A stretch of DNA of 64,000 bases, taken from Sulfurimonas crateris (GTDB lineage: Bacteria; Campylobacterota; Campylobacteria; Campylobacterales; Sulfurimonadaceae). A model generated the notes under the pieces. It saw only the letters and a list, made by a program, of their open reading frames with translations. It made no database searches and was not told where the DNA came from. Positions 14,931-23,384 of the stretch are shown here, one piece after another. Every line of letters begins with the position of its first letter. The first letter of the stretch is position 1. The DNA lies in NCBI GenBank assembly GCA_945883795.1, contig CAMCYC010000004.1, positions 1 to 64,000 of the forward strand, given 5' to 3'. Position numbers and translations under genes: made by a program.

Positions 14931-15320
14931 CTATTTAAGCTTCTCAAGCTCAAACCACTTTGAATTAACATTATCACTTTTTATTGCTATTTCTGGCTTT
15001 TTATTGCTTTGCCAAAGTGCTTCATCTGGTTTTGGACAAGCTCTGACACACTCTGAACAGTATATGCAAAGATAGGGATTGTAGTTATAAACTAGACCTT
15101 TCTTATTCTTTTCATTTTGAGATGGATTGTCAGATTTTACAAATAAAATTGCCCCTGGCGGACACGCTTTTTCACATTTTAAACAGTATATACATGATTC
15201 TTCTCGATACTCTATTAATCCTCTGTAATCTTTATCTTTTGGTATAGGTGTGAGAGGATAATCTATTGTTTGAGGTTTTCTAAAAAGATTTGTAAATGCT
15301 TTAAAAAATGAGGTAAACAT
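14931..15320 (-). CDS. Two-cluster 4Fe-4S ferredoxin subunit of group 4 hydrogenase (EchF/HyfH/NuoI-like)
   Basis: CIYCLKCEKACPPGAI and CIYCSECVRACPKPD motifs; last gene of the operon. Confidence 0.88.
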   Translation of the reverse strand: MFTSFFKAFTNLFRKPQTIDYPLTPIPKDKDYRGLIEYREESCIYCLKCEKACPPGAILFVKSDNPSQNEKNKKGLVYNYNPYLCIYCSECVRACPKPDEALWQSNKKPEIAIKSDNVNSKWFELEKLK

Positions 15321-15329
15321 CTCTAAAAC

Positions 15330-16424
15330 CTATTTTGCAGTGCATGAAAGGCAAGGGTCAAAAGATGCTAAAATTGCGGGAGCATCTGCATAATTTTCAC
15401 CCATAAATATATGTGAAAAAGCTGGAATAGAAGCAAAAGTGGGTGTTTTAATCCTTACACGCTCAAGCATAGCAGTTCCATTGGCTTTAACATAATACAT
15501 CAGTTCTCCTCTTGGAGCTTCAAACCTTACAACACTTTCCCCATTTGGTTTACCTTTATATTTTGTCTGTATTTCACCCTCTGGAATACCAGCTAAAATA
15601 TTATCACACATCTCAATAGAGTTTAAAATCTCGTTTAGTCTTACAATATTTCTAGCATTAATATCTCCATCGATATGCGTTTGCATCTTAAATCCAATCT
15701 CATGATATGGAAGATATTTTATCTCATTTCTTACATCAATATTAAGCCCAGAAGCACGAGCCAATGGTCCAATAGCATTAAATTTATATGCATCATCAAG
15801 AGACAAAGCTCCTATCCGTTTAAATTTTAAAGAGAGACTCCAGTTATTTGTAAATTCATCTACATAACCCATCACTTTTTCTTTTACTCTATCAAGATTA
15901 TTGACAATTTTTGTTGCAACTTCAAGATTAATATCTCTATTAACTCCGCCAATATTTATATAATCAAATTGGATTCTATTACCAGTCAAAAGTTCTTGTA
16001 TCTCCATAATAAGTTCTCTATCACCCATGATTCTCATAAACATGGCTTCAAATCCTGCATTTTCGCAAGTATGAGAAAGGCAAAGCATATGAGAGTGAAT
16101 GCGGTCTAATTCCAAAAGTAAAATTCTTAAATATTTGGCTTTTGAAGTTACTTCAATATTTAATAGCTCTTCAATAGCTACAGTGTACGAAAGGGAGTGA
16201 GTGATAGCACAAAGTCCACAAACTCTTGCAACAACATAACCGATACCATCGTATTTAAATTTTGTTGTACAAGCTTTTTCTATGCCACGATGCACAAAAC
16301 CAACATCAGAATCAACACCTACAATTTTTTCATTTTCACACTCAAACTTAAATCGTACAGGCTCTAAGAGTGAGATATGTTGTGAACCCAAAGGGATATT
16401 TATTGTCTTTTTCATAGTAAACAC
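15330..16424 (-). CDS. Group 4 [NiFe] hydrogenase large subunit (EchE/NuoD-like)
   Basis: Both Ni-ligand motifs present: RVCGLCAITHS and C-terminal DPCLSCTAK. Confidence 0.93.
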   Translation of the reverse strand: MFTMKKTINIPLGSQHISLLEPVRFKFECENEKIVGVDSDVGFVHRGIEKACTTKFKYDGIGYVVARVCGLCAITHSLSYTVAIEELLNIEVTSKAKYLRILLLELDRIHSHMLCLSHTCENAGFEAMFMRIMGDRELIMEIQELLTGNRIQFDYINIGGVNRDINLEVATKIVNNLDRVKEKVMGYVDEFTNNWSLSLKFKRIGALSLDDAYKFNAIGPLARASGLNIDVRNEIKYLPYHEIGFKMQTHIDGDINARNIVRLNEILNSIEMCDNILAGIPEGEIQTKYKGKPNGESVVRFEAPRGELMYYVKANGTAMLERVRIKTPTFASIPAFSHIFMGENYADAPAILASFDPCLSCTAK

Positions 16425-16759
16425 CCTCTTAGTGGCATCTGAATCGAATCTTTATCGAGGTACAACCCTTTTGCACTTCCCTCAACCTCTACGCCAAACA
16501 TATCTACGAGTTCTCTTTGAGAAATTATTGCTGATGGTATTATATTTACAATCGATGGAATAATATCTTCATATTGAATCTCTACATAAAATATAACTAT
16601 CTCTTCAAGCGTTTCATATTTGGAAAATATCCACTGAACTTCTAGCATATTATCTTGAAGTGCTACACCGTTTATGGTGAGAAAATGCCACTTTTTATAA
16701 TCATAAAAACTTTTAATTTCTTCTACTATATCCAAAAGCGTGACTTTAATTTTCTTCAT
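16412..16759 (-). CDS. NuoC-like hydrogenase subunit (EchD-like)
   Basis: 115 aa; IPSAIISQRELVDMFGVEVEGSAKGLYLDKD resembles the NuoC/30 kDa C-terminal motif; operon position. Confidence 0.82.
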   Translation of the reverse strand: MKKIKVTLLDIVEEIKSFYDYKKWHFLTINGVALQDNMLEVQWIFSKYETLEEIVIFYVEIQYEDIIPSIVNIIPSAIISQRELVDMFGVEVEGSAKGLYLDKDSIQMPLRGCLL

Positions 16760-17279
16760 CTTTTTCCCCTACTTTGAGTGCACAGTCTCTTTTATTGATT
16801 ATGCCATCTTTTGTTGAAGCATCTTGAAAAAGCTTCAATGGTTTTTCCATCTTTTTTGTTTTTTGCTCCAAAATATCAAGAGCTTTTACGATTCCATCTA
16901 TAATAAGTTCAGGAGATGCGGCACATCCTGGAATATAAACATCCACTGGAATATATCTATCAATTCCATCTTCAACATTATACATGTCCCGAAAAACTCC
17001 TCCTGTACATGTACAACTTCCAAGCGCTATTACCACTTTTGGCTCTGGCATTTGGGTATAAAGTTCAACCAAACGCTCTCTTGACCTAAATGTAACTGGA
17101 CCTGTTACTAAAAATATATCTGATTGTTTCGGGTTTCCTGTATTTATCACTCCAAACCTTTCTAGGTCATACTTTGGAGAAAGAGCGGCAAGAATTTCTA
17201 TATCGCAACCATTACAACTTCCTGCATTATAATGTAAAATCCATGGCGATTTTTTTCTATACTTTTTGAAATTAAACAT
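16746..17279 (-). CDS. [NiFe] hydrogenase small subunit (EchC/NuoB-like)
   Basis: GSCNGCDIE, GSCTCTGG, PGCAASPE cluster-ligand motifs. Confidence 0.93.
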   Translation of the reverse strand: MFNFKKYRKKSPWILHYNAGSCNGCDIEILAALSPKYDLERFGVINTGNPKQSDIFLVTGPVTFRSRERLVELYTQMPEPKVVIALGSCTCTGGVFRDMYNVEDGIDRYIPVDVYIPGCAASPELIIDGIVKALDILEQKTKKMEKPLKLFQDASTKDGIINKRDCALKVGEKDEEN

Positions 17280-18096
17280 AAGAGAGTCCTATAATATTAA
17301 GTGTAGCTAATGTCAATCCGATAACTAACACGATTTTTATAAGATGGTCTATCCTGATTCTGGCAGTAGAGTTGTCCAGCAAATTTACCAAAAAAAATAC
17401 CGCTAAAAATAAAGTAAGAGCAAGTATAAAACTATCTCCTGCAAAAAGCATTACTAATGCATAAATAAACACATATTCAAGCAATTTTGCCATATATAAA
17501 AATTCAAAAAAGATTCCGCTAAATTCAACCTCAACACCACCAATTATCTCTTGATGTGCTTGAATTGCATCAAATGGAGATTTTTTTAACTTTATAGGTA
17601 CTATAAGTAAAAAAGCCAAAAAGAGTAAAGGGATTGAAAATAATGCAGAACTATTTTCTCGTATAGCAGATATTTCAAAACTCCCATTGAGCATAAAAAA
17701 AGCAACTGCTAACATGATAAGAATTGGCTCATAAGCTATCATGGCGATAAGCTCTCTGTTTGCGCCTATGTGAGAATATATAGATTTTACACTAAATCCC
17801 GCAAGGATTAAAAAGATAGATGAGAGCAGATGTAAAAATATAATATAAAGTAAATTTTGCCCAACTATAACAAACGCTACAACTACCCACAAAGTTACAA
17901 AGTGCATAATTCCCAAAATAGTATGGTAAGAGTTGATTATAAAAGCCTGTTTATCCATCAGTTTATACATATCATAAAATGGTTGCAAAAGTGGCGGACC
18001 TAAACGGTTTTGCATTCTAGCACGAACAATTCTCTCCGCTCCATAGATAAAACCACCGATAATTGGAGCTAAAATAATAAGTAGAATTTCTATCAT
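17272..18096 (-). CDS. NuoH-like membrane subunit (EchB/HyfC-like)
   Basis: RMQNRLGPPLLQPFYDMYKLMDK and EVEFSGIFFEFLYMAKLLEYVF; multi-TM. Confidence 0.92.
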   Translation of the reverse strand: MIEILLIILAPIIGGFIYGAERIVRARMQNRLGPPLLQPFYDMYKLMDKQAFIINSYHTILGIMHFVTLWVVVAFVIVGQNLLYIIFLHLLSSIFLILAGFSVKSIYSHIGANRELIAMIAYEPILIMLAVAFFMLNGSFEISAIRENSSALFSIPLLFLAFLLIVPIKLKKSPFDAIQAHQEIIGGVEVEFSGIFFEFLYMAKLLEYVFIYALVMLFAGDSFILALTLFLAVFFLVNLLDNSTARIRIDHLIKIVLVIGLTLATLNIIGLSYV

Positions 18097-19850
18097 AACA
18101 TCACTCCTACTATAAGAACTAACATGCCAAAAATTGCTACAATAGAGATAGCTTTTTTGTAATTTGGCGAAACATTAAAATAGTACATACCAAGTTTTAT
18201 CTCCTCTTTTTCACCGCAGTTATACTCTTTTACTCTGTGTGCTTTTTTAAAAAGAAGTGTAGCAAAAAGAAAAGGTACAACTGCAATTAAAATGACTGGG
18301 GTTATAATCTGTATACTACTTAAGAGTTCCATTTTAAAAGTGACATATATCCCTATAATCAGCAAAAATAAGAGTAAAAAAGAGGGTATTACATAGTAAT
18401 TTGAAAGCTTCGTATGTTCTTGTTGGAAATCTACATTTTTTGCAAAAAGTTTTGTGACTACTTTGAAATAAAGTAGTGTTAAAAAGACGCTTCCAAGTGT
18501 TATAAAAATAAGTGCAAAAATATAAAGAGGATTTTTTAGAATCTCTTGTGCAATAGATTCTATAGCCATAAATTTTGCTATAAACGCTCCAAAAGGGGGA
18601 AGCGTAAGCGAAGCAAAACCGATAATTATAAAAAATACAGTAAGTGGTGAGTGGTTAATCAATCCATCTATATCATCAACATATTTGAGATGAAAGTTTT
18701 TTTCTAAGATACCAGCTTGTAAAAATAGTAACGCTTTTGAGATTGCATGAAATACGATAAGAACTACTGTTGCGTTTATAGCTTGCTCACTTCCAACTGC
18801 CGCCAACGCCATCATAAGAGCCAAAAGAGCAATAGTTGAGAGACCCAAAATTTCTTTAAAACAATCTTTATTAAGAGCTAAAAGTGAAGCTGTAAAGAAG
18901 ACAAATGTACCAATAAGTGTCACGCTTATAGATACAAATCCACTCATAGCGGGTGCTAGTTTTAACATTAAAAATGGAGCAATCTTAACCATTGTTGCAC
19001 TATGTAAAATTGCACTCACAGGCGTTGGTGCAACCATGGCACCTATTAGCCATTTATTAAAAGGGATACTTGCTGCTTTTACAAAAGCTGCAAGTATCAA
19101 GAATACAATAGGAAGTAAAAATAGGTTATCTCTATTATGAATTAATATATCAAAATAGAGTGTGTCGTAGTGAGATATTGAGAGTATAAGAGCCAGTAAA
19201 ATAGCTACACCTCCTATCTGGTTCATCCATAATGCTCTGAGTGAATTTTCTACTGAAATTGCATTACCACGGTACGCTATCAGAACATAAGAAAAAAGTG
19301 TTGTAAGCTCAAAAAGCATAAAAAATATTTCAATATTATTGCTAGAAACTATAAAGTTCATAACGCCAAGAAAAAGAAAAAGAATGGCAATAAATCCATT
19401 TTTTTTGATTTGGCTAAAGTTCTCGCTCTCAACATATTTGAGAGCATAAATAATAATTATGCCTCCCACTATGTTTATAATAAGATACATAATCGAGGCT
19501 ATGTTATCAACCAAAATATCACTCGATTCTAGCGTAGGAACTAAAAATAGAACTTCACAATAAAGGATAATTTGCACAAGAGCAAGAGCAATTACAAGAG
19601 CATGTTTTTTTACAATCCCCTGCCAAAGAAAAAAGATAAGAACAACACTATCGAGAAAAACAAAGATATTGTGAAAATAGTGAGGCAGTGCAATCTCTAC
19701 AACTGAACTTAAAGATATGAGATTAAAAACACTTATTACACTCAAAAAAATAACGAAGAGTATTACCAAAATATTTCTTGTTACCAGATGCGTCATGAAA
19801 ACTACAAAGGAAAAAAGTATAGGAGCTAAAATTAATAAACCTAATATCAC
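18093..19850 (-). CDS. NuoL/Mrp-like proton-translocating subunit (EchA/HyfB-like)
   Basis: 585 aa, ~15 TM; WLIGAMVAPTPVSAILHSATMVK, FKEILGLSTIALLALM; GTG start with AGGA Shine-Dalgarno. Confidence 0.92.
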   Translation of the reverse strand: MILGLLILAPILFSFVVFMTHLVTRNILVILFVIFLSVISVFNLISLSSVVEIALPHYFHNIFVFLDSVVLIFFLWQGIVKKHALVIALALVQIILYCEVLFLVPTLESSDILVDNIASIMYLIINIVGGIIIIYALKYVESENFSQIKKNGFIAILFLFLGVMNFIVSSNNIEIFFMLFELTTLFSYVLIAYRGNAISVENSLRALWMNQIGGVAILLALILSISHYDTLYFDILIHNRDNLFLLPIVFLILAAFVKAASIPFNKWLIGAMVAPTPVSAILHSATMVKIAPFLMLKLAPAMSGFVSISVTLIGTFVFFTASLLALNKDCFKEILGLSTIALLALMMALAAVGSEQAINATVVLIVFHAISKALLFLQAGILEKNFHLKYVDDIDGLINHSPLTVFFIIIGFASLTLPPFGAFIAKFMAIESIAQEILKNPLYIFALIFITLGSVFLTLLYFKVVTKLFAKNVDFQQEHTKLSNYYVIPSFLLLFLLIIGIYVTFKMELLSSIQIITPVILIAVVPFLFATLLFKKAHRVKEYNCGEKEEIKLGMYYFNVSPNYKKAISIVAIFGMLVLIVGVML

Positions 19851-19988: not shown

Positions 19989-20048
19989 CTTCATATTAAA
20001 ATATTGAATATGGTACAATAAAAATATTATAATGTAATGGAATAAAAT

Positions 20049-21143
20049 ATGATGAATGAACAAATTTTTAAGCAATTATCTCAATTACTCTCTTCTATAG
20101 ATGATGAGGTATACTCGTATTATAAAAATTCTCTCCCAATTTTTATAAATTATGTAAATAGTGCTATTCAAGCAAGAGAAGATGTATCTATTCTTGTTGG
20201 TTTAAATTCTTTTGAATTAGTGAAGCAGAATCATGAAAACCATGCAAACTTTATGTATACTATTTTTTTAACTAGAGATGTGAAAAGTATACATGACACC
20301 TATATATGGGCTTATAAAACATATCATGCGAAAGGTTTTGATTTTAGGTATTTTTATCTCGAACTTATTGCATGGAAGGAATCATTTGAATTGAATAATA
20401 AGAAACTTTTAATGCCTATTATTGAACTTTATAATTATCTTATATCACTGCATGATTATTTTGTACAACATGCTATGTCTACAGCACTTGAAATTCCGAA
20501 AAATATTAATGAAAACATATATAGCAATTTTCTAGATGCTATCTTAAAACCAGATTTAACTGAAGCAATATCTATTTCAAAGACTTTTATTAAAACAGAT
20601 GAAGATATAAAAAAATTTTGGCAATACATTATTCTTCCTGCACTTTATAGTATCGGGAACAAATGGGCTAATGCAGAAATATCTGTAGGTGAAGAACACA
20701 TGGCTACATCAATATGTCAAAGAGTGATGGCAGAACATTATCCAAAAATTATAAGTTATATAGATGATAAAAAAAATATTTTAATTACAACAAGTCCAAA
20801 TGAATTACATGAAGTAGGTGCAAGGATATTAGCTGATATACTTGAACTCAACGGTTATAATGTAACTTTTATGAGTGCCAATAGTACACTGCAAGAGAAG
20901 TTTGATATTATAGAACTTGAAGAGATAGAGTTTGTCCTTATTTCAACTACTATCGTATCTAATATTGTTAAAACAAAAGAATTAGTTACTCAAATAAGGG
21001 ATAAATTCAAACATAATACGCCTATTATCATTATCGGTGGTCAAGCATTTAATGAAAATAGTGATGCAAATACATTTGTTAAAGCAGATTATTTAATACG
21101 AAATATAAATGAATTATTAAATCTTTTAAAGAAGACTCTATAA
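20049..21143 (+). CDS. Cobalamin-binding sensor with CarH-like light-sensing motif and helical N-terminal domain
   Basis: LPALYSIGNKWANAEISVGEEHMATSICQRVM contains W-x9-EH; SPNELHEVGARILADILELNGY gives ExHxxG; IIIIGGQAF at the C-terminus. No MerR DNA-binding domain. Confidence 0.85.
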   Translation: MMNEQIFKQLSQLLSSIDDEVYSYYKNSLPIFINYVNSAIQAREDVSILVGLNSFELVKQNHENHANFMYTIFLTRDVKSIHDTYIWAYKTYHAKGFDFRYFYLELIAWKESFELNNKKLLMPIIELYNYLISLHDYFVQHAMSTALEIPKNINENIYSNFLDAILKPDLTEAISISKTFIKTDEDIKKFWQYIILPALYSIGNKWANAEISVGEEHMATSICQRVMAEHYPKIISYIDDKKNILITTSPNELHEVGARILADILELNGYNVTFMSANSTLQEKFDIIELEEIEFVLISTTIVSNIVKTKELVTQIRDKFKHNTPIIIIGGQAFNENSDANTFVKADYLIRNINELLNLLKKTL

Positions 21144-22346
21144 ATGCTTAATTTAGATAACTTAAATAAAGAATTATTGAGTAAATTCGCAGAGACAAGT
21201 GACACAATGTTATTTGTAATCAAAAACGATATGAGTATCATTGATTTTAGTCCTAATTTTCAAATACATTCTAAAAAATTTAAAAATATTTATGAGCTAA
21301 TTACCTATACTCACCGAAGTGAGTTTTTTGTTAAACTCAATCAGTGTATTAAAGAACAATCTATTGTATCCTTTAAAACAAACTTTAGTTATGACAACAC
21401 AGATGTAGAAGATATTCCAAATACTTTTAATATAACGATGCAGTTTCTTCAAAATGATAAAATTATTCTAGTGGCTGAAACAGTTTGTATGTTTTCACAT
21501 GATAATGCAAAAGGATACTTTTCTATGATGAATGACTATTCTGCTATTTCTAGAAGACTGCAAAAATCAGAATACAATTTAGACAAAAAGAACTTAAAAC
21601 TTAAAGAGACAATTAAAGAGCTTCTACTCAAAGAAGAGATGATGCTTTCCCAATCAAAACAAGCAGCTATGGGAGAAATGATTGCTATGATTGCTCATCA
21701 ATGGAGGCAACCTCTCTCTGCTATGAACATGGATGTTAATAGCCTTACGGCATCTATTGCATTTGAAGAGGAAATTACAACAGATAATCTTCTAAGCCTT
21801 GCAAGTAATCTCTCTACTCAGATACAGCAACTCAGTAAGACTATTGATGATTTTAGAAACTTTTTTAAACCAAAGCCACAAAACGAATATATAACAATAG
21901 AAGATGCTTTAAATAGTACGCTTAATATTATTGGCATGAGTTTAGTGAACAACAACATAAGCTTAAATATTCAAAATAACAGCAAAAGTTCTTTATTTAT
22001 TAATAAAAGTTCATTGATACAAATTTTACTCAATATTATTGGAAATGCAAAAGAGATGTTATTAGAAAAAAAAGTACCAGAAGCTACTGTCAATATAAAT
22101 ATCAATGAAACAAAAGAAACGATAATTATCTCCATCTGTGACAACGGAGGAGGCATACCAGAATCTATTATAAATAAAATAGGTCAGCCTTACTTTACAA
22201 CGAAAAAAAAACTCAACGGTACAGGACTTGGTTTGCATATCTCTAAAACAATTGTAGAAAAACACTTTTTTGGAACTCTTCTTTGGCATAATGAAAAAGA
22301 AGGTGCTTGTTTTGTGATTACTTTTAATATAGAACAAAAGACATAA
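21144..22346 (+). CDS. Soluble sensor histidine kinase (PAS-like N-terminus)
   Basis: AMIAHQWRQPLSAMNMD H-box, NIIGNAKEML, CDNGGGIP, GTGLGLHISK; no obvious TM segments. Confidence 0.92.
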   Translation: MLNLDNLNKELLSKFAETSDTMLFVIKNDMSIIDFSPNFQIHSKKFKNIYELITYTHRSEFFVKLNQCIKEQSIVSFKTNFSYDNTDVEDIPNTFNITMQFLQNDKIILVAETVCMFSHDNAKGYFSMMNDYSAISRRLQKSEYNLDKKNLKLKETIKELLLKEEMMLSQSKQAAMGEMIAMIAHQWRQPLSAMNMDVNSLTASIAFEEEITTDNLLSLASNLSTQIQQLSKTIDDFRNFFKPKPQNEYITIEDALNSTLNIIGMSLVNNNISLNIQNNSKSSLFINKSSLIQILLNIIGNAKEMLLEKKVPEATVNININETKETIIISICDNGGGIPESIINKIGQPYFTTKKKLNGTGLGLHISKTIVEKHFFGTLLWHNEKEGACFVITFNIEQKT

Positions 22347-22439: not shown

Positions 22440-23384
22440 ATGAAAAAATCAACTTATGTTTCAATAGATAAAGAATATTTAGACGAGGGTAGTAAACCTG
22501 ATTTTGATATTTTTAGTGCAAATCATGAAAAAACATATATGAGCATCTATTTACAAAGTGGAGCAGTTATAGATGAAAAGATTAAAAAAGATTTAAAGAA
22601 TTTAGAAAAGCTATATATCATGAAAGAATTTGTGCCTACTTATGATGAGTATGTTAAAAAGCATATAACAAAAATCAATAATGAAGCTGTGAGTAATCTT
22701 GAAATGAAAGCTATTACTATATATGAAGACGCAACAAAAGCCGTTGATAATATATTTCATAATCCTTACGCAAAAGAAAATGTAAAAGCCATCTATCATG
22801 TAGTTGAAGAATTAGTTGATGTGATTGTCCATGATGAATTGGTTATAGAGTCCTTATTACGACTTATTGCACATGATTATTATACACATACACACTCTAT
22901 AAATGTCAGTATTTACGCACTTTGTTTAGGTTCATTTTTAAAAATGGATAAAACAAACTTAAAATCTCTTGGTGTCGCTGCACTTATGCATGATATTGGC
23001 AAAAGCAAAGTTGATGCAGCTATCATAAATAAAAATGGAATACTAACCGATGCAGAGTATAATCAAATAAAAAAACATCCTATAGAAAGTTATCTAATAG
23101 TCAAAAATCTTGGAATAACAGATGAAAAGATATTAAGTGGCATAAAATACCATCATGAAAAACTAGACGGGACAGGATATCCTGATGGTTTAGTAAAGAT
23201 ACCGCTTTTCGCAAAAATCATAGCTATTTGTGATGTTTATGATGCATTAAATACAAAACGCTCATACAAAGAGGGCATGAGTATTTTTGAGACACTCTAT
23301 TTTATGAAAAAAAATATGCAACACCATCTTGACATAAAATTATTAAATGAATTTATAAAGATGTTTAAACACAATAAAAAATAA
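22440..23384 (+). CDS. HD-GYP cyclic-di-GMP phosphodiesterase
   Basis: LMHDIGKSKV (HD) and YHHEKLDGTGYPDGL (GYP) both intact; DUF3391-like N-terminus. Confidence 0.94.
   Translation: MKKSTYVSIDKEYLDEGSKPDFDIFSANHEKTYMSIYLQSGAVIDEKIKKDLKNLEKLYIMKEFVPTYDEYVKKHITKINNEAVSNLEMKAITIYEDATKAVDNIFHNPYAKENVKAIYHVVEELVDVIVHDELVIESLLRLIAHDYYTHTHSINVSIYALCLGSFLKMDKTNLKSLGVAALMHDIGKSKVDAAIINKNGILTDAEYNQIKKHPIESYLIVKNLGITDEKILSGIKYHHEKLDGTGYPDGLVKIPLFAKIIAICDVYDALNTKRSYKEGMSIFETLYFMKKNMQHHLDIKLLNEFIKMFKHNKK

Follow-up and report, generated by a model that had tools for sequence, protein, structure and literature searches.

A predicted globin-cobalamin sensor gene directly upstream of a histidine kinase gene in a Campylobacterota-type genome

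Photocobilins, or photoglobin-B12 proteins, combine a CarH-type B12-binding domain with a phycobiliprotein-like globin and are represented by SasPcob (8j2w/8j2x) and AbDPcob (8j2y) (PMC10979010); photoglobin-B12 proteins were treated by Schneider et al. 2022, as cited in PMC10979010. Groups with the B12-binding domain at the N- or the C-terminus are both listed. A standalone photocobilin that regulates a separate enzyme by contact provides a precedent for sensors acting on separate signalling proteins (PMC10979010). In SasPcob, where the globin is last, biliverdin is held through Asp270, which contacts rings A-C, and no Cys is needed (PMC10979010). In CarH of Thermus (5c8d) and in CtMerR (8jbs), a W-x9-EH motif, an axial His and a helical cap with Rossmann domain are joined to a MerR DNA-binding domain. 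For light-responsive B12-binding domains, the signature GxxW / EH / GxxH / GxxxP was published (PMC11796333). AerR (7te2) is a standalone B12-binding regulator without a DNA-binding domain of its own; it acts on the repressor CrtJ and is not reported there to have a globin domain (PMC9144470). Pairs of a cobalamin-dependent protein and a GGDEF protein are encoded on Ilyobacter plasmid pILYOP01 (WP_013388897/WP_013388898) and in a Halanaerobium MAG (JAGYNO010000008).

Here, an open reading frame and its neighbours were analysed in a stretch of 64,000 nucleotides (the window). The following features were assigned, all on the forward (+) strand.

20004-20033 (+): promoter-like pair TTGAAT-N18-TATAAT, 15 bases 5' of the start codon (consensus scan, 10 of 12 matches; weak)
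20049-21143 (+): predicted globin-B12 sensor protein, 364 aa (open frame with ATG start; Pfam B12-binding_2 and B12-binding)
20049-20483 (+): N-terminal domain (residues 1-145) predicted to fold as a globin, divergent and photoglobin/phycobiliprotein-like (AlphaFold, Foldseek, family profile)
20229-20243 (+): N61-H-E-N-H65 motif, with Asn61 at the position of SasPcob Asp270 (sequence alignments)
20511-20738 (+): cap helices of the B12-binding domain (residues 155-230; Pfam and modelled helices)
20664-20699 (+): W206-x9-E216-H217 (W206-ANAEISVGE-E216-H217), CarH-type upper-ligand site (sequence; signature in PMC11796333)
20769-21140 (+): Rossmann-type B12-binding subdomain, residues 241-364 (Pfam; modelled strands and helices alternate)
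20802-20819 (+): E252-L-H254-E-V-G257 with predicted lower axial His254 (aligned with the CarH axial-His motif)
21144-22346 (+): soluble histidine kinase, 400 aa (Pfam HATPase_c 8.8e-18, HisKA 6.2e-6; sequence)
22440-23384 (+): protein of HD-GYP type, with an HD domain and the motifs HD and HHExLDGTGYP (Pfam HD_5 2.4e-26; motifs read from the ORF)

For comparison, relatives were divided into two groups. Group A comprised six rows, namely the window sensor, L007 (Halanaerobium MAG), L010 (Ilyobacter plasmid), L016, L017 and L018; group B comprised seven rows, including an Azospirillum relative.

The predicted cobalamin-binding half

Sensor residues 161-228 matched Pfam B12-binding_2 (7.7e-11) and residues 244-340 matched Pfam B12-binding (2.5e-12), both above the curated cut-offs. 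The nearest solved relatives were CtMerR (8jbs, 2.4e-13) and Thermus CarH (1.8e-9). The initial annotation had read W-x9-EH followed by ExHxxG, in that order, from the sequence. Both motifs are present (W206/E216/H217 and E252/H254/G257); when the protein was shuffled 200,000 times, the same arrangement arose at a rate of 7e-5, or 7 per 100,000. It had also proposed a CarH-type B12 domain lacking a DNA-binding domain, and the Pfam domains, the CarH and CtMerR matches and the fold matches of the model given below bear this out. As it had stated for the MerR domain, no MerR or other DNA-binding domain was found in the sensor, and residues 1-150 gave no helix-turn-helix match in Pfam or NCBIfam. 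In this the sensor resembles AerR and departs from CarH and CtMerR.

Structure prediction was performed with two sequences only, the window sensor and L007. The full-length AlphaFold model of the sensor had a mean pLDDT of 78 and a pTM of 0.48. Using Foldseek, its top structural matches were CarH, CtMerR and AerR at similar strength (E about 3e-9 to 3e-8); the overall rmsd was poor (about 10 A), and the placement of the subdomains in the full model is therefore not reliable. Residues 155-230, assigned as the helical cap, were helical in the model and span the B12-binding_2 match. In the tree, the sensor CBD fell among the group-A sensors and separate from MetH, with weak support and on a long branch.

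Of the signature for light-responsive domains (PMC11796333), two of four elements are present, GxxW as GNKW (203-206) and EH at 216-217. The other two failed: GxxH reads NELH (251-254) and GxxxP reads SANST, in which the sensor differs from photocobilins as well as from CarH and CtMerR. L007, L010, L016 and L017 of group A likewise have Asn in GxxH and have kept GxxxP. The equivalent of CarH His132 is Ala, which says little alone because this position varies in proven photoreceptors. All B12-contact residues (Trp206, Glu216, His217 and axial His254; 4/4) are retained. Against the NCBIfam CarH equivalog, the sensor scored 62.9 bits (cut-off 400).

Three proteins carry an XRE/Cro-type helix-turn-helix fused to a CarH-type B12 domain (L026 1489-2364, L028 1282-2196 and L029 1264-2145). 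In these CarH-like regulators the DNA-binding domain is thus of another type; two of them are in one genome (G431).

The N-terminal globin-like domain

Residues 1-150 matched no Pfam family in the HMM search that had been proposed for them. The AlphaFold model of the N-terminal domain had a pLDDT of 84 and a pTM of 0.82. In a Foldseek search of the PDB, its best match was smURFP (probability 1.00, TM 0.63/0.69, but E 0.035), a fluorescent protein that binds biliverdin; phycobiliproteins and also heme globins came next, which makes the predicted fold a globin closest to phycobiliproteins. A PDB profile search with the group-A N-termini alone gave no credible match and found no phycobiliprotein. 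A profile of 14 N-termini from all relatives matched allophycocyanin (8e-8) and the SasPcob globin domain (3e-5); the seven group-B N-termini alone matched the SasPcob globin domain at 2.4e-8, and the Azospirillum relative was above the Pfam Phycobilisome cut-off (3.7e-9). Compared directly, group-A and group-B N-termini were linked at only E 5e-4 and probability 31%. The group-B HMM matched L007 at 1.2e-5 (best shuffle 0.25), and the Ilyobacter (group A) and Azospirillum (group B) proteins were aligned in one piece over residues 3-347.

The assignment of the window N-terminus is thus made in sequence through bridging relatives, together with the predicted fold, and from these the domain is likely a divergent phycobiliprotein-like globin ("photoglobin"). 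The initial annotation had described a helical N-terminal region of no recognisable kind; the helical part stands, and the second part gives way to this assignment. Given the globin-like N-terminus, the sensor is most likely of the photoglobin/photocobilin type, with the globin ahead of the B12 domain, and is not a lone CarH domain. As in photocobilins, a CarH-type B12 domain would be combined with a phycobiliprotein-like globin, which is placed first here and last in SasPcob; AerR, by comparison, stands apart from the sensor by the globin domain predicted for the latter.

The adjacent kinase gene and the relatives

The sensor stop codon TAA (21141-21143) is followed at the very next base by the kinase ATG (21144), a gene that the initial annotation had not mentioned. 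The HisKA match of the kinase was just under the cut-off (26.6 vs 26.9 bits), and no membrane segment was evident by eye in the sequence. The gap of 93 bases between the kinase and the HD-GYP-type gene contains no terminator-like site, and this gene is possibly in the same transcription unit as sensor and kinase. The promoter-like pair is weak evidence because the region has about as many such sites as its shuffles. Upstream and divergent from the sensor gene lies a Group-4 [NiFe]-hydrogenase/complex-I-like operon (window 14931-19850, reverse strand; 198 bases between start codons), with a hydrogenase-like large subunit at 15330-16424 (RVCGLCAITH and C-terminal DPCLSC).

Like the domains and motifs, the gene order and the recurrence of the pair were read from sequence. 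In seven relatives (L007, L010, L016, L017, L019, L021 and L022), a GGDEF gene is directly downstream of the sensor gene and often overlaps it. The Ilyobacter and Halanaerobium pairs match the window in full-length sensor architecture (sensors about 32-34% identical) and in the order of the coupled genes, but their output gene encodes a diguanylate cyclase and that of the window a histidine kinase. In the Azospirillum relative, the downstream gene encodes a histidine kinase as in the window; photocobilins differ from the window sensor in its pairing with a histidine kinase and in its Campylobacterota-type genome. No GGDEF or kinase partner was present in the flanking stretches examined beside L012, L018, L020 and L023. 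The kinase here and the diguanylate cyclase in seven relatives together indicate a sensor-plus-output pair with exchangeable outputs, and we consider with good confidence that sensor and kinase form a B12-dependent sensor-kinase pair. The N-terminal regions of the kinase and of the GGDEF partners showed no significant homology (hhalign E 0.19; shuffled controls as high).

The closest relatives of the sensor, group A, were from Halanaerobium, Ilyobacter and others. The kinase core was, among plasmids, closest to a Sulfurimonas kinase (48%), whereas the nearest kin found for the sensor were from Fusobacteriota and Bacillota; these sequence relationships suggest that an acquired sensor was joined to a home-grown kinase. 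The Sulfurimonas match agrees with the Campylobacterota-type genome proposed in the initial annotation. Occurrence in a Campylobacterota-type genome had been called notable, and the distribution supports this: no further copy beyond MetH-sized matches was found among 298 genomes of the phylum, and the same genus yielded one divergent relative only (L002). Viral contigs searched with the three closest sequences contained no relative, and the phage search gave no match. In L002 (188-2541, reverse strand), a radical-SAM gene resembling spore photoproduct lyase follows 35 bases on (3.9e-21, below the family cut-off). L018 (1477-2649) has lost the B12 site (EH to EQ, axial-His motif to DSSQ) and kept the whole architecture.

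Proposed ligand, signal and coupling

The reading that we favour, by a modest measure, is a soluble cobalamin-ligand sensor without a bilin, whose more probable signal is light and which controls the coupled kinase by contact. In this sensor, an N-terminal non-heme globin would precede the CarH-type B12-binding domain. His254 would bind a cobalamin, most probably AdoCbl, whose upper ligand would lie against Trp206, Glu216 and His217. When this ligand is lost, for which light is the most likely cause and cobalamin supply a possible one, the sensor would rearrange in conformation or assembly and convey the change through protein contact to the kinase of the next gene, in whose place most relatives have a diguanylate cyclase. 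Ligand, signal and coupling are what we infer here; the same arrangement of a standalone sensor with a separate signalling protein is proposed as for photocobilins. That light is the signal is plausible, and we give it even weight. Against the favoured reading count the weak sequence link of the group-A N-termini to phycobiliproteins, the Foldseek E-value and heme globins among the matches of the N-terminus, the absence of GxxH and GxxxP, the long branch, the lack of significant similarity between kinase and GGDEF N-terminal regions, and the cobalamin genes and riboswitch not found in the host (below).

The main rival to light as stimulus is cobalamin availability, or the upper-ligand or redox state of Co; imported B12 would switch the kinase and photolysis would be incidental. 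The host genome (99.85% complete) was searched for cobalamin genes, and the searches for CobA, PduO/EutT and the cobalamin riboswitch were each positive in control genomes. In favour of this rival, neither CobA nor PduO/EutT adenosyltransferases were recognisable in the host genome, nor were a CobQ/CbiP/CbiA-type protein (cobyric-acid synthase) or a cobalamin riboswitch, and B12 would therefore come from outside. GATase_3 matches were rejected as B12 synthesis genes, being HisH and PurQ by sequence and neighbours. An Rfam scan of the window returned only a tRNA and no riboswitch, and no second B12-binding protein was found in the host genome with the sensor as query. Cobalamin availability is also favoured by the two failed elements of the light signature and by the group-A relatives in Halanaerobium and Ilyobacter, which are strict anaerobes. 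It is nonetheless rather unlikely, since Trp206, Glu216 and His217, which correspond to adenosyl contacts in CarH-type photoreceptors, are kept, AdoCbl held there would be inherently photolabile, and the host probably senses light by other means. On contig C16 of the same genome, a heme oxygenase gene overlaps a gene for a PAS_2-GAF-PHY hybrid histidine kinase (bacteriophytochrome; L034 5206-8440, reverse strand), with which the host can probably make biliverdin and sense red light. Bacteriophytochrome and heme oxygenase were unexpected in a Campylobacterota-type genome.

A full two-chromophore photocobilin, binding AdoCbl and biliverdin, has the same two domains as SasPcob, could be supplied with biliverdin by the host heme oxygenase and needs no Cys (PMC10979010), of which the window N-terminus has none. 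The SasPcob bilin site argues against it. Trp61 and Glu71/His72 of SasPcob (numbering of PMC10979010) correspond to 8j2x chain positions 56 and 66/67; because of this offset of 5, Asp270 is chain position 265. At this position Asp is invariant in group B (7/7 rows) and Asn in group A (6/6 rows, including window Asn61). With the bilin-anchoring Asp replaced by Asn in this divergent branch, the window sensor has likely lost the usual bilin contact, and it probably works with B12 alone. As the overlapping phytochrome gene already explains the heme oxygenase, and as the N-terminal domain is far in sequence from known bilin binders, we regard two chromophores as improbable. It is more doubtful still that the B12 site is vestigial, with the globin pocket and its conserved NHxxH serving a different ligand and the protein signalling without B12: the long branch of the sensor, the loss of EH and axial His in L018, and the NHENHANFM motif and aromatic set conserved within group A speak for it, but all four B12-contact residues are kept in the window protein. 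A corrinoid methyl carrier of a methyltransferase system (MtaC/MtbC/MtgC) was rejected and is the least probable of these readings, as the NCBIfam matches to MtgC-type corrinoid proteins were weak (all scores far below cut-off), the CarH-type W-x9-EH and ExHxxG are present, and no methyltransferase gene adjoins, signalling genes lying downstream as in the relatives.

The favoured soluble B12 sensor is of a known kind, because published photocobilins carry the B12 domain at the N- or the C-terminus and regulation by contact has been described for them (PMC10979010); what is new is the Asn in the globin site, the interchangeable partner gene and the host. Group A may, tentatively, be a distinct clade of globin-B12 sensors from anaerobes and one Campylobacterota-type lineage. 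In such a clade the bilin site would have been given up (Asp to Asn, with a new NHxxH motif), the globin would have turned to coupling or to a new ligand, and only the B12 site would inform an exchangeable partner (a diguanylate cyclase or a kinase) about light or the cobalamin state. A B12 sensor of this kind would be separable from its output and could be paired with different signalling enzymes, for c-di-GMP synthesis or a phosphorelay. The window sensor would be a natural test case for the role of the globin half without the bilin contact and for the report of light versus B12 supply. A working pair would constitute a two-gene, B12-controlled histidine kinase.
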